Shown here piece after piece: positions 283 through 6,886 of a DNA stretch of 40,436 bases (the first letter of the stretch is position 1; each line of letters starts with the position of its first letter). Both the position numbers and the translations under genes were made by a program. The stretch comes from Desulfobacterales bacterium. GTDB taxonomy: Bacteria > Desulfobacterota > Desulfobacteria > Desulfobacterales > JARGFK01. The stretch is from assembly GCA_029211065.1 (NCBI GenBank), contig JARGFK010000035.1, positions 1 through 40,436 on the forward strand. The letters run 5' to 3'. The notes beneath the pieces are model-generated. The model was given only the letters and a program-made list of their open reading frames with translations. It searched no databases and was not told where the DNA came from.

Positions 283-471
283 TTAAAATTTTGGTTCTAA
301 ACCAGCCTGCTTGCAGATTTCATTAGCTGTTATTCGATCGAATTGTTTATGTCTTTTGACAGGGATTACCTTGGTATCATTCGTGTATATGGCATGATTA
401 CCGCCTTCCCTCAAAAGGTAAAAGCCGTTCTTTTCCAAGTAGCGGATTAAGTCACGTCGCTTGACAGACAT
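283..471 (-). CDS. hicA: HicA-type mRNA interferase toxin
   Basis: A 62-residue protein of the HicA/YcfA family, small dsRBD-fold toxins that cleave mRNA on the ribosome. The visible hallmarks are the N-terminal RRDLIRYLEKNGF helix, the G-G-N-H segment (REGGNHAIY) carrying the catalytic His, the basic VIPVKRHK strand and a C-terminal EICKQAGL helix. I chose the ATG at 471 over the upstream codon at 483 because a GAGG lies about 6 nt before it. It overlaps the end of hicB by 20 bp, so the two genes are co-translated in the order hicB-hicA. Confidence 0.85.
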   Translation of the reverse strand: MSVKRRDLIRYLEKNGFYLLREGGNHAIYTNDTKVIPVKRHKQFDRITANEICKQAGLEPKF

Positions 472-691
472 TTTCGACCTCAACCGGAAGCTGCTCTATC
501 AGCGCATTTCCTAAAGGAACTTCCTTTTTGAGCTGGCTGTATGTGAGGATCATTTCATTGAGAGCATCTCTTAACATTTCGCGGCACTCTTCGAGGTCCT
601 TACCTTCAGTGACAACTTCCGGCCATTCGACAAGCTGGCCCATATATCCGGATTTAATTTTCGTATACTTTGCGGTATAATTGATCATCAT
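452..691 (-). CDS. hicB: HicB-type antitoxin
   Basis: A 79-residue HicB-family antitoxin. The N-terminal half (YTAKYTKIKSGYMGQLVEW and PEVVTEGKDLEECREML) is the partial RNase-H-like fold that covers the HicA active site. The protein is short for the family and shows no clear C-terminal HTH or ribbon-helix-helix domain, so DNA binding may rest on the HicAB complex. The ATG is preceded by AGGAGG 4 nt upstream on the minus strand. A promoter and a palindrome lie directly upstream (709-740). The antitoxin comes first in the operon and its end overlaps hicA. Confidence 0.85.
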   Translation of the reverse strand: MMINYTAKYTKIKSGYMGQLVEWPEVVTEGKDLEECREMLRDALNEMILTYSQLKKEVPLGNALIEQLPVEVENVCQAT

Positions 692-1793: not shown

Positions 1794-1852
1794 TTGACAA
1801 ATGGTATACCGTTTATTAATATTTTATTACAAAATGTCAGGAGGTATACCAT
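1794..1852 (+). promoter_or_regulatory. vapBC promoter with two GGTATACC operator half-sites
   Basis: TTGACA (1794-1799), a 17-nt spacer and TAATAT (1817-1822) form a good sigma-70 promoter. The 8-bp palindrome GGTATACC occurs twice: at 1803-1810 between -35 and -10, and at 1843-1850 abutting the antitoxin ATG. The larger ATGGTATACC / GGTATACCAT pair is an inverted repeat. AGGAGG at 1839-1844 is the ribosome site and partly overlaps the second palindrome. This is the layout of an autoregulated toxin-antitoxin operon. Confidence 0.75.
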
Positions 1853-2087
1853 GATCATAGCGAAGACTACTGAAAAGGGACATGTTATAATCCCTGCAGC
1901 CCTTAGAAAAAAGCACAACATCAAAAAGGGAACCAGAGTAGCCATATCAGAAGGGGAAGGGAACGTGATCCTGATAAAGCCGATTCCCGACGACCCCATC
2001 GAGGCATCACGAGGCATGCTGAAAGGGAAAACTTCTCTGGTTAAAGCGCTTCTGAGGGACCGGGGAGAGGAGGCGAAACGTGGATAG
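1851..2087 (+). CDS. vapB: AbrB/MazE-fold antitoxin (VapB-type)
   Basis: A 78-residue antitoxin. The N-terminal AbrB/SpoVT swapped-hairpin domain (IIAKTTEKGHVIIPAALRKK, then IKKGTRVAISEGEG) binds DNA. The C-terminal tail (EASRGMLKGKTSLVKALLRD) is the usual toxin-wrapping segment. I chose ATG 1851 because AGGAGG lies 6 nt upstream; the frame is open further left but has no ribosome site there. Its last codons overlap the toxin start by 8 nt. The name vapB rests on the fold and on the PIN partner. Confidence 0.85.
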   Translation: MIIAKTTEKGHVIIPAALRKKHNIKKGTRVAISEGEGNVILIKPIPDDPIEASRGMLKGKTSLVKALLRDRGEEAKRG

Positions 2088-2481
2088 CGCTTACGTTCTC
2101 GACAGCTACGCACTGATCGCTCATTTTGAGGATGAAGCCGGCGGAGAACAAGTCAGAAAGGTGTTGAAAGCAGCACATGCCGGAAAGACAAAGCTTTATA
2201 TGTCCGTAATAAACCTCGGTGAAATTTACTACAATACCTATCGGGAGCGTGGGCGGGAAAAAGCGGACGAGGCCGTTTTTATGATGGAGCAATTGCCGGT
2301 CACTATCGTAAATGCGGATATGGAAATCACGATGGAAGCAGCCGGTCTGAAGAGTACGCATTCCGTGGCATATGCGGATTGTTTTGCCGCAGCGCTGGGA
2401 ATCAGAAAGAAGGCAAAGGTGATCACCGGCGATCCCGAGTTTAAGCGATTTGGGGAAAAGGTAATGGTTGAATGGCTCTAA
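2080..2481 (+). CDS. vapC: PIN-domain ribonuclease toxin VapC
   Basis: A 133-residue PIN-domain protein starting at GTG 2080, preceded by AGGAGG about 7 nt upstream. The four acidic positions of the Mg-dependent active site are visible: D8 (YVLDSYALIAHFE), E48 (VINLGEIYYN), D100 (AYADCFAAALG) and D118 (ITGDPEF). VapC toxins cleave tRNA or rRNA; the target cannot be read from sequence. It overlaps the antitoxin gene, so translation is coupled. Confidence 0.9.
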   Translation: MDSAYVLDSYALIAHFEDEAGGEQVRKVLKAAHAGKTKLYMSVINLGEIYYNTYRERGREKADEAVFMMEQLPVTIVNADMEITMEAAGLKSTHSVAYADCFAAALGIRKKAKVITGDPEFKRFGEKVMVEWL

Positions 2482-3496: not shown

Positions 3497-4684
3497 TCAG
3501 GATCGATAATCCGCATTAATCCGCACATAGTCGAGTGAAAAGTCGCAGGTATAGACAGAATCGGATTCGCTCCCGAGATGCAGATCGATTGTGACGGTAA
3601 ATTCCGGGGTCTTGAGAACCCGGGTGGCTTCAGCTTCAACAGATTTGCCGCAGCCCATGCCGGCTTTGACCATCTGGACGTCGTTGAAAAACACATCGAT
3701 CCTGTCGGGATCTATGGGAACATCGGCGCGGCCGGCTGCGCCCAGAATTCTCCCCCAGTTGGCGTCTTCCCCGAAAAAGGCGGTTTTAACCAGATTCGAG
3801 CCGGCGATGGTATTGGCGATGCGATGGGCATCCAGTGCGCTGCGCGCACCTTTGACCCGGATTTCCACAAGTTTAGTGGCGCCTTCGCCGTCTTTTACCA
3901 GCATTTTGGCCAGCTCTAGACAAGCGTCATTCAGCAGGGGCTGAAAATGTTGAAGTGCTTCCGAATCAGATATCCGCACCCCGGACAGGCCGTTGGCCAG
4001 GACCAGGGCGGTGTCGTTGGTGCTGGTGTCGCCGTCGATGGTGATGCGGTTAAACGTATGCCGGACGGCGCTGTTCAAGGCCTCTTGTAGCATTTCGGCG
4101 GAAATTTCAACGTCGGTGCAGATGAAGGACAGCATGGTGGCCATATCGGGGTGGATCATGCCGGCCCCCTTGGCAACCCCCAAAATGGTGAAAGGTTTGT
4201 CGCGGATGCGGCCTTCTTTAAAGACGATTTTGGGAACGGTGTCTGTGGTCATGATAGCTTCGGCAAGCTTGAAAACACCGTCCGGTTGCAGGGATTTTAC
4301 CAGTTCCGGCGCGGCTGCGTCTATTTTTTCAATGGGCAGGGGTTCGCCGATAACGCCGGTGGATGCCACCAGCACCAGGTCTTCGGCGATGCCGAGCTGG
4401 GCGGCCGTGACCTGCGCCATTCTGGCGGCATGCGCCATGCCTTTTTGGCCGGTGCAGCAGTTGGCGTTGCCGCTGTTGACGATAACGGCCTGACAGCGGC
4501 CGGATTGAATGCGCTGCCGGTCGTAGCGAACCGGCGCGGCCTGGACCTTGTTTCGGGTAAATACGCCGGCAACGGTTGCCGGAACTTCCGAAAAAATCAG
4601 GGCCAGGTCGGGCTTTCCGTTTTTTTTAAGGCCGGCGACGACGCCGGCAGCTTTAAATCCGCGGCAGACAGGTTGGATAGCCAT
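3497..4684 (-). CDS. argJ: Glutamate N-acetyltransferase / ornithine acetyltransferase
   Basis: A 395-residue ArgJ, the enzyme that recycles the acetyl group from N-acetylornithine to glutamate in arginine synthesis and often also makes N-acetylglutamate from acetyl-CoA. The self-cleavage site is clear: AKGAGMIHPDMATMLSF, with T183 as the nucleophile that becomes the N-terminus of the beta chain. Other landmarks are VFTRNKVQAAPV, NSGNANCCTG, ASTGVIGEPLP and ITIDGDTSTNDT. Full length. An AAAGGA precedes the ATG. No other arg genes are in the window. Confidence 0.95.
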   Translation of the reverse strand: MAIQPVCRGFKAAGVVAGLKKNGKPDLALIFSEVPATVAGVFTRNKVQAAPVRYDRQRIQSGRCQAVIVNSGNANCCTGQKGMAHAARMAQVTAAQLGIAEDLVLVASTGVIGEPLPIEKIDAAAPELVKSLQPDGVFKLAEAIMTTDTVPKIVFKEGRIRDKPFTILGVAKGAGMIHPDMATMLSFICTDVEISAEMLQEALNSAVRHTFNRITIDGDTSTNDTALVLANGLSGVRISDSEALQHFQPLLNDACLELAKMLVKDGEGATKLVEIRVKGARSALDAHRIANTIAGSNLVKTAFFGEDANWGRILGAAGRADVPIDPDRIDVFFNDVQMVKAGMGCGKSVEAEATRVLKTPEFTVTIDLHLGSESDSVYTCDFSLDYVRINADYRS

Positions 4685-4997: not shown

Positions 4998-5180
4998 ATG
5001 AAAGAAACGATTGCGACATGCCCGTCCTGTAAGGGGGATCTTGTTATTCTAAGGACGTGACGGCAGGTGCTGTTACGCTGCCGGTCCTGCAGCGCTTTTT
5101 ATCCCCTGGAAATGTTTCTGGATGAGATGGATGACGGGTTTGAACAAAAACTTGGCAATATACCCGTTGACCGGATATAA
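4998..5180 (+). CDS. Small dual-CxxC protein with in-frame TGA, probable selenoprotein
   Basis: The frame from ATG 4998 to TAA 5178-5180 has 60 codons and one internal TGA (codon 21, 5058-5060). Before it is MKETIATCPSCKGDLVILRT (first CxxC at residues 8-11). After it comes RQVLLRCRSCSAFYPLEMFL (second CxxC at 28-31) and an acidic tail. A frame that stays protein-like on both sides, with paired CxxC motifs 20 residues apart, is best explained by readthrough as selenocysteine. A SECIS-like hairpin follows (5076-5094). I recall a small dual-CxxC (seleno)protein family in Desulfobacterota that looks like this; membership is from memory. The alternative is a CGA-to-TGA mutation in a zinc-ribbon gene. 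The ribosome site is weak. An AEC transporter gene starts 35 nt downstream. Confidence 0.7.
5076..5094 (+). promoter_or_regulatory. SECIS-like hairpin downstream of in-frame TGA
   Basis: CGCTGC (5076-5081) and GCAGCG (5089-5094) form a perfect 6-bp stem with the 7-nt loop CGGTCCT. The loop begins 22 nt after the TGA (5058-5060), has G at its second position and contains GGUC, as in the E. coli fdhF SECIS loop. Unpaired U residues lie just 5' of the stem (5073-5074). These features match the known bacterial SECIS geometry. A second, mutually exclusive hairpin (CGGCAG 5061-5066 with CTGCCG 5078-5083) overlaps it. Confidence 0.6.
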
Positions 5181-5215: not shown

Positions 5216-6124
5216 ATGGTTTTACAAAGTCTCTTTCCTGTTTTCGCCCTCATCGCACTGGGTGTGCTGCTGAAGCACTTCAGCCTGACCAATGACGCCT
5301 TCCTGAAGACTTCGGACAAACTTATTTATTTTATTTTTTTCCCGATGATGCTGTTCTGGAAAATCGGGGGCGCCGCCGCAACGTCTGCGATCGACTGGAA
5401 ATTCTGTGCGGCGGCCATCTGCGCCGTCCTGGGTGTATATATTTTGAGCACCGCTTTTATAAACTTTAAAGTGACGCCTTTTCAGGCCGGTTCATTTTCC
5501 CAGAGCTGCTATCGATTCAACACCTATATCGGCATGGCCATTGTGATGAACGCTCTGGGAGAAGAGGGGGTCCGTCGCTTCGGGGTTTTAATCGGGTTTC
5601 TCATTCCCATCATTAACCTGATGGCGGTGTCCACCCTGATCTGGTTTTCGGCCGGGCAGTTTACAAAACGCCAACGGGTCCGGTTCACTCTGAAAGCGCT
5701 GGTATCAAATCCCCTGATTCTGGCCTGTTTTGCCGGGATCGCGTTTTCCCAGGCCGGGTTGTCCTTTCCGGTTTTTCTGAATAACACCTTCAATCTGACT
5801 TCCATGGTGACCCTGCCCCTGGCACTGCTTTCCATCGGCGGCGTTCTGAATTTGAAAAGTCTGCAGGGTAACTTTAAGTTGTCCCTGACGGCTGCGCTTT
5901 TCAAACTGCTGGTCCTGCCGGGGGTCGGTTATTTTTTTATGAAGCTTTTTGGCGTTACGGACCTGTCGTTCCGGGTGGGGATGGTATATTTCGCTCTGCC
6001 GACTTCTACCGCCCTGTATGTGCTTTCCGCCCAGCTCCACAGTGATACGGAACTGGCTTCGGCCGCCATTGTACTTTCAACGATCTTGTCGTTTGTTTCG
6101 CTGACAGTCGCGTTATTGATATGA
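5216..6124 (+). CDS. AEC-family (auxin efflux carrier-like) transporter
   Basis: A 302-residue integral membrane protein of the AEC/BART superfamily, with about ten hydrophobic helices in two repeats. It opens with LFPVFALIALGVLLKHF, and the second half has SNPLILACFAGIAFS and the family-like LALLSIGGVLNLKSL segment. Members export or import small organic anions such as malate or malonate; the substrate cannot be inferred here. The gene follows the dual-CxxC gene by 35 nt and precedes truA by 21 nt, so the three may be co-transcribed. Confidence 0.85.
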   Translation: MVLQSLFPVFALIALGVLLKHFSLTNDAFLKTSDKLIYFIFFPMMLFWKIGGAAATSAIDWKFCAAAICAVLGVYILSTAFINFKVTPFQAGSFSQSCYRFNTYIGMAIVMNALGEEGVRRFGVLIGFLIPIINLMAVSTLIWFSAGQFTKRQRVRFTLKALVSNPLILACFAGIAFSQAGLSFPVFLNNTFNLTSMVTLPLALLSIGGVLNLKSLQGNFKLSLTAALFKLLVLPGVGYFFMKLFGVTDLSFRVGMVYFALPTSTALYVLSAQLHSDTELASAAIVLSTILSFVSLTVALLI

Positions 6125-6145: not shown

Positions 6146-6886
6146 ATGCGGAAAAATTTTAAACTGACAATCGAGTACGATGGCAGCGGATTTTACGGCT
6201 GGCAGCGTCAAAAGAACGACCGGACGGTTCAGGGAGTGATTGAGGCAGCGATTGCGACCATGACCGGCGAGACGGTTACCCTGATCGGTTCGGGCCGCAC
6301 CGATGCCGGCGTCCATGCCCGGGGACAGGTGGCAAACTTTCTGTGTGAAACCGAGCTGACGGCACCGATATTTGAACGGGGGCTCAACAGCCTGCTGTCG
6401 GAGGATGTGGTTGTCCGGTACTGCCACCAGGTGGACGAATCCTTTCATGCCCGCTATAGCGTCAAAAGCAAGATCTATCAGTACCGTATATTGAACCGGG
6501 TTATTCCGGTGGCTGTGGGCCGTCAGTATTGCTGGTTTATTCGCAGAAACATAGACGTAGAGACCATGCGCGCCGCCGCGGGTTATATCGTCGGCAGTCA
6601 CGATTTTAAAGCGTTTGAGGGCGCCGGCAGTCCCAGGTCCAGTACCATTCGGCAGGTTATACGGGCCGAATGGCAGATGCCGAAACCCGACCAACATGTT
6701 TTTGAAATCGAGGCCGATGGGTTTTTGCGGTATATGGTGCGCAATCTGGTGGGCACCCTGGTGCAGGTGGGTTTGGGGAAACTAACGCCGGAGGATTTCA
6801 AGGGGATTCTGTTTTCCACCGATCGAAACCAGGCCGGCGCCACCGCTCCGCCCCAGGGGTTGTTCTTAATGGAAGTCAAGTATTAA
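6146..6886 (+). CDS. truA: tRNA pseudouridine(38-40) synthase TruA
   Basis: A 246-residue TruA, which makes pseudouridine at positions 38-40 of the tRNA anticodon arm. The catalytic Asp is D53 in GSGRTDAGVHARGQ. Family landmarks are TIEYDGSGFYGWQRQ at the N-terminus, SFHARYSVKSKIYQYRI mid-protein and the RYMVRNLVGTLVQVG segment near the end. Length is typical. It sits 21 nt after the AEC transporter gene and ends convergently with tatC. Confidence 0.95.
   Translation: MRKNFKLTIEYDGSGFYGWQRQKNDRTVQGVIEAAIATMTGETVTLIGSGRTDAGVHARGQVANFLCETELTAPIFERGLNSLLSEDVVVRYCHQVDESFHARYSVKSKIYQYRILNRVIPVAVGRQYCWFIRRNIDVETMRAAAGYIVGSHDFKAFEGAGSPRSSTIRQVIRAEWQMPKPDQHVFEIEADGFLRYMVRNLVGTLVQVGLGKLTPEDFKGILFSTDRNQAGATAPPQGLFLMEVKY

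Follow-up and report, generated by a model that had tools for sequence, protein, structure and literature searches.

A probable selenocysteine-decoded gene of the dual-CxxC family NF041197 (OS_HP3) in a Desulfobacterales genome

On the plus strand of the window (the whole stretch analysed, 40,436 nucleotides of a Desulfobacterales contig), a 60-codon frame is crossed by one TGA. Does this TGA end a short peptide, or is it decoded as selenocysteine (Sec), and if so what could the selenol do in so small a protein? The earlier note on this DNA had described a frame with Cys pairs at residues 8/11 and 28/31 and a sole TGA at codon 21, and the frame is built in this way. Judged by comparison with its relatives, it is very probably (about 0.95) a Sec-decoded gene of the NF041197 (OS_HP3) family. 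The proposal that it encodes a selenoprotein is thus borne out by the codons of relatives, selection, hairpins and Sec machinery described below.

The frame and its family

The features of the gene are as follows.
4998-5180, plus strand: coding sequence of the probable selenoprotein, 60 aa and stop TAA, NF041197 / OS_HP3 family (translation and NCBIfam match)
5019-5030, plus strand: first CxxC (C8, C11), putative first zinc knuckle (translation and alignment)
5058-5060, plus strand: in-frame TGA, codon 21, probable Sec21 (TGA or Cys codons in relatives; selection persisting beyond)
5076-5094, plus strand: bacterial SECIS-type hairpin of 6 bp with loop CGGUCCU, its stem including the C28 codon (folding and family comparison)
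5079-5090, plus strand: second CxxC (C28, C31), putative second zinc knuckle, overlapping the SECIS hairpin (translation and alignment)
5169-5177, plus strand: C-terminal DRI (alignment)

With the TGA translated as Sec, positions 4998-5180 (+) read MKETIATCPSCKGDLVILRT-U-RQVLLRCRSCSAFYPLEMFLDEMDDGFEQKLGNIPVDRI, followed by the stop TAA, and the start aligns with that of a paralogue in the same genome (L107). All 20 family members aligned at the first CxxC have it unchanged; in three further members (L123, L127, L134) CxC takes its place. The C-terminal D-R is shared by at least 90% of the 20 aligned members. The window copy differs from most NF041197 members with a DR[LI]-type end in that Val, instead of Cys, precedes the ending. 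Its Sec is flanked as LRT-U-RQV, with Thr and Arg as direct neighbours, and the CxxU or UxxC motif used as a criterion for thioredoxin-type selenoproteins is absent there; the window copy has no Cys within three residues of Sec and is therefore not a CxxU site.

When Sec is read as Cys, the protein matches NCBIfam NF041197 over residues 8-60 at 75.2 bits (E 3.3e-21; cut-off 40), and a search in which the stop is read through likewise exceeds the cut-off at 64.4 bits. The model is named "dual CXXC motif small (seleno)protein" (CxxC_Se_CxxC). The window protein has its two CxxC motifs, its length of about 60 residues and its spacing, in which the Sec or Cys site lies 10 residues beyond the first CxxC and 7 ahead of the second. 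The gene had been put forward as new; this part of the proposal does not stand, as the family is already NCBIfam NF041197 and has been published as OS_HP3. On this sequence comparison, the window frame is a member of the described family. The consulted parts of a 2026 review (PMC13188914) give NF041197 as hypothetical protein OS_HP3 with the motif RxU, and both this review and PMC9312934, in the parts seen, credit OS_HP3 to Zhang and Gladyshev 2007 (Nucleic Acids Res, gkm514), a work on the Olavius algarvensis symbiont according to PMC9312934. It had also been claimed that automatic annotation would miss the gene. This is true of the plain open reading frame list of the window, which has no entry at 4998-5180, and not of the NCBI family model, which catches it. 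The lesson for annotation is that a plain frame list loses such a gene, and a dedicated program can do so too: the portion of PMC12013277 consulted reports that deep-Sep missed the OS_HP3 of Desulfosarcina widdelii PP31.

The same paper (2025) names a new "hypothetical protein DW", which PMC13188914, in the part consulted, also places under NF041197, with the motif GxU; one example accession is OS_HP3 in PMC9312934 and DW in PMC13188914. DW resembles the window protein in its dual CxxC layout with Sec between. Among the relatives we found a second group (group B), which first came to notice through matches below the cut-off. It forms a branch of its own (SH-aLRT 100), bears the signature CGGxAxIxGRU and lacks the DR[LI] end; the window protein lies on the other, RxU, branch. 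With Sec as Cys, five scanned members of group B scored 30-46 bits against NF041197, straddling the cut-off of 40. We had considered group B as an undescribed paralogue family and rejected this, given those scores and a motif that fits DW. Group B matches DW, the two being equated from the GxU motif and the family model, with DW compared by its partial published description only. In two loci of group B (L139, L151) the frames extend well beyond the usual end without a stop, as if fused to another domain.

Decoding of the TGA

Of 395 sampled genomes from the window's phylum, 112 gave family matches with E of 0.001 or below, 88 of them above the cut-off. The earlier note had looked to homologues with Sec or Cys at the site for support and to homologues with Arg (CGA) for refutation. 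The 131 loci read, out of 145 match loci listed, contain 102 with TGA at the site, 28 with Cys and none with Arg; the remaining one (L109) lacks the region and was left out of the Sec/Cys count. The other 14 loci were tabulated, 13 with one TGA and one with two, and every stop tabulated inside a match region is TGA. When the Sec/Cys residue is masked, a tree of 129 rows splits into the two branches above (SH-aLRT 100) and needs four Sec/Cys changes; it has 67 columns only, and its inner forks are uncertain. The comparison shows a TGA that is evidently translated and whose residue, among the relatives read, is replaced by Cys and nothing else.

L109 (G370:C39) appears to be a family remnant without the first CxxC and the Sec region, and the missing half is absent from the three forward frames nearby. 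Additional sequences came from a pattern scan that yielded at least 120 stretches; the pattern demanded four Cys, TGA and a D-R end, and these sequences are uninformative on Sec versus Cys and on conservation of the demanded residues, as are the invariant columns of alignments that include them. Among the 80 titled loci of the pattern-scan matches listed, most bear names of Deltaproteobacteria or Desulfo- taxa; four are MAGs of Nitrospirae or Thermodesulfovibrionales, and one is a Myxococcota MAG. One stretch titled Bacteroidetes (L175) was dropped as a chance pattern match with a stop inside.

If the TGA were a true stop, the product would be a 20-residue peptide or the remains of a decayed gene, and the hairpin at 5076-5094 would be an intrinsic terminator. 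The hairpin is followed by CTTTTTATCC and scored as terminator-like, which speaks for this reading. Against it, 102 loci have preserved the TGA at this codon, with Cys encoded there in 28 more, and selection does not relax beyond it. We drew 49 non-overlapping pairs from 203 distinct TGA-bearing sequences. Their pN/pS is 0.25 upstream of the TGA and 0.22 downstream, where pN is below pS in 47 of the 49; with duplicate genomes still in the set, the two ratios were 0.24 and 0.22. Purifying selection has the same strength on both sides of the TGA, and the codons beyond it are therefore translated in the family. Selection beyond the TGA, together with a hairpin register shared across the family (below), led us to reject the terminator, and a true stop is very improbable. 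That the TGA is read as Trp (code 4) or Arg is a negligible prospect: no supporting point was found, the relatives read without TGA have Cys and never Trp or Arg, and the genome has Sec machinery.

The hairpin with loop GGUC that the earlier note placed 22 nt beyond the TGA is present. Its arms lie at 5076-5081 and 5089-5094 and its loop of 7 at 5082-5088; the loop begins 22 nt past the TGA, leaving a spacer of 21 nt. A figure legend in the part of PMC13188914 consulted gives the bSECIS constraints as a loop of 3-9 nt whose first two bases include G, an upper stem of 4-16 bp and a spacing of 16-37 nt; the window hairpin lies within all of these. The RNAfold check suggested for it gave a mixed answer: the fold is there, and it is not significant alone (z -0.4 over the 47 nt that follow the TGA). 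When this one gene is recoded synonymously, about 12% of the variants equal it (p 0.12; for L107, p 0.025), and on the same score 7 of 131 single-TGA frames of the window that pass length filters surpass it; this frame would therefore not have stood out by its hairpin. Inspected by eye, none of the best 30 of those 131 frames by hairpin score resembled a CxxC-type selenoprotein.

Across the family the signal is clearer. Hairpins of at most -4 kcal/mol with a G at one of the first two loop positions occur in 96% of 221 TGA loci (a set that includes pattern-found sequences and some duplicates) versus 29% of 28 Cys loci. Against recodings drawn from the family's own codon use, TGA loci average -9.25 versus -4.23 for the recodings and Cys loci -3.00 versus -2.10, and the share of loci whose hairpin outdoes 95% of the recodings is just 44% for TGA loci and 14% for Cys loci. 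The register of the window hairpin, in which the stem is formed partly by both Cys codons of the second CxxC, is used by 144 of 203 distinct sequences, and 40 of the 203 have a hairpin nearer the TGA (registers 34-37); the family thus seems to have two SECIS positions in one small protein. In the common register five tested pairs are standard in 71% of cases versus 23-57% in 12 other registers; at pair 16-32, GC, TA, GT and AT all occur and 20% are not standard. The hairpin is weak evidence alone and convincing only across the family.

A genome search for selA, selB, selC (tRNA-Sec) and selD had been proposed, with absence of selB or selC as a refutation; all four are present. The genome (100% complete, 4.29% contamination) has selA at 610.3 bits, selB at 391.6 bits, tRNA-Sec at 77.2 bits and three selD genes (on contigs C7, C26 and C37), each with an in-frame TGA. 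SelB was found in 110 of the 112 family genomes versus 243 of the 283 others (lists compared by eye); since it is so common (353 of 395 genomes), its co-occurrence adds little. The two family genomes in which selB was not found (G042, G113) are 67% and 76% complete. From this machinery and the hairpin, we infer that the hairpin at 5076-5094 would direct SelB and its Sec-tRNA(Sec) to insert Sec at codon 21.

The second copy in the same genome, L107 (G000:C28:7655-7780, minus strand), has its TGA at the same codon and is the nearest neighbour of the window copy in the 129-row tree. Its C-terminus has diverged and the DR[LI] end is lost. After the TGA, the two copies differ by 25.0 nonsynonymous changes on 88.5 sites and 14.0 synonymous changes on 25.5 sites. 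Overall, the predicted family OS_HP3 gains support from selection on both sides of the TGA, the common hairpin register (144/203) and the four Sec/Cys changes, three lines of evidence that we did not meet in the consulted parts of its published descriptions.

The zinc-ribbon model and the selenol

The role of the selenol can now be put as a concrete question, namely what it does at the turn of a zinc-ribbon hairpin. An AlphaFold2 model built from 58 sequences has strands at residues 14-19 and 24-28 with residue 21 in the turn between them, followed by two short helices (mean pLDDT 73.1, pTM 0.49; pLDDT 55-56 after residue 40). This modest-confidence model agrees with the earlier claim of Sec at a turn between two CxxC pairs and, with the motif, makes the claimed metal binding (zinc ribbon) likely; the claimed redox role is a possibility. 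The structural neighbours listed are mostly zinc ribbons, such as Rpb9, RPC10, aIF2-beta and ZifS. Foldseek returned nothing at E 0.001 or below (best E 0.17), no VIA-align Z reached 5 (best 3.7), and Pfam ribbons stayed below cut-off (best PF02150, 17.0 bits versus 25.2). The best matches of a PDB profile search were HypA (3a43, E 2.4e-4) and 2jrp (E 2.6e-4). The likeness to Rpb9, RPC10 (C11), aIF2-beta, ZifS and the HypA zinc domain is weak; it consists of CxxC, beta-hairpin and CxxC and is one of fold only, with no shared function implied. LysW, an amino-group carrier protein, is also a very small zinc ribbon (PDB 3wwl, E 0.032), and an argJ gene adjoins the window selenoprotein gene. LysW carries its load on a C-terminal Glu; the window protein ends in DRI, and a LysW-like carrier role was rejected for want of a Glu end.

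On the motif and the model, the four Cys of the ribbon would coordinate a single zinc, and Sec21, with Thr on one side and Arg on the other, would lie where the two-stranded hairpin between the knuckles turns. That the selenol is presented at the turn of a zinc-ribbon finger in this way is a tentative reading to which we give somewhat less than even odds. The least certain step is the next one, in which the selenol would act as an exposed nucleophile or redox residue on the finger and react with a partner molecule; in members with a Cys close to the C-terminus or three positions ahead of Sec, it could react with that Cys instead. The window copy has neither Cys. Counting Sec and Cys forms together, 134 of 228 distinct sequences have Arg as the next residue after the site.

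The thiol-redox alternative, in which Sec forms a selenylsulfide with a Cys close to the C-terminus or the CxxU Cys and is recycled by a thiol reductant, is possible, if on the unlikely side. It draws on three counts among distinct Sec forms: of the 163 with a terminal D-R, a class whose share is inflated by pattern-found sequences, 106 have Cys just before it; 32 of the 38 lacking this ending carry a tail Cys; and 19 of 201 have CxxU. L109, L123, L127 and L134, which have no CxxC start, were left out of the tail-Cys and CxxU counts. The alternative is opposed by the 57 of the 163 without Cys before D-R, including the window copy with its Val, and by the lack of CxxU in that copy. A selenylsulfide is thus open to many members, and not to the window copy by these Cys. 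The CxxU forms (L058, L062, L065, L067, L071, L072, L087, L088, L095, L097, L098, L104, L108, L136, L154, L163, L198, L243 and L271) also defeat "no Cys near Sec" as a family rule. Several of them lie downstream of a FabD-like gene.

Returning to a selenol presented at the ribbon turn, outside a CxxU-type pair, we consider it rather doubtful that it probes a partner; RNA or a translation factor comes to mind as the partner because co-directional truA-like genes lie downstream in one lineage. The CxxU relatives make partner probing slightly less likely. If it were true, they would be a derived or parallel solution, and the family would have a mode of Sec use for which we met no described mechanism in the parts of the literature consulted. 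It is improbable that Sec serves as a fifth metal ligand or redox switch, with zinc released on oxidation. In sequence Sec does lie between both knuckles, but the model places it at the hairpin turn, and in zinc ribbons this turn is usually the end far from the zinc.

Genes around the selenoprotein gene

Profile scans of the window's own genes identified these neighbours.
3497-4684, minus strand: argJ, divergent neighbour
5216-6124, plus strand: AEC-type membrane transporter (PF03547), 35 nt downstream, possibly in the same operon
6146-6886, plus strand: truA-like tRNA pseudouridine synthase (PF01416)

The order argJ (divergent), selenoprotein, AEC transporter and truA recurs elsewhere, for example in Desulfosarcina widdelii (L183) and D. 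alkanivorans (L224). This recurrence points to a desulfobacterium as the source of the window. Among 250 loci, in which some genomes occur twice under two ids and which are thus not independent, a truA-like gene is found at +1 or +2 in 46, an argJ-like gene in 38 (in 34 of these at -1 and divergent) and an AEC-like transporter at +1 in 22; neighbour names outside the window were assigned by reading the sequences. In other lineages the neighbours are different genes of housekeeping type (FabD-, PyrE-, AlaS-, Asd/RecN- or TopA/DnaX-like). A function deduced from neighbours was rejected, there being no common pathway across the 250 loci, and we take the gene order as vertical descent at a stable locus and not as a functional link. 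Elsewhere in the window, 283-691 (-) encodes a HicA toxin (PF07927) and, next to it, a UPF0150-like partner that is probably HicB; at 1794-2481 (+) a MazE-type antitoxin (PF04014) precedes a PIN-domain protein (PF01850), the two forming a VapBC-like pair.
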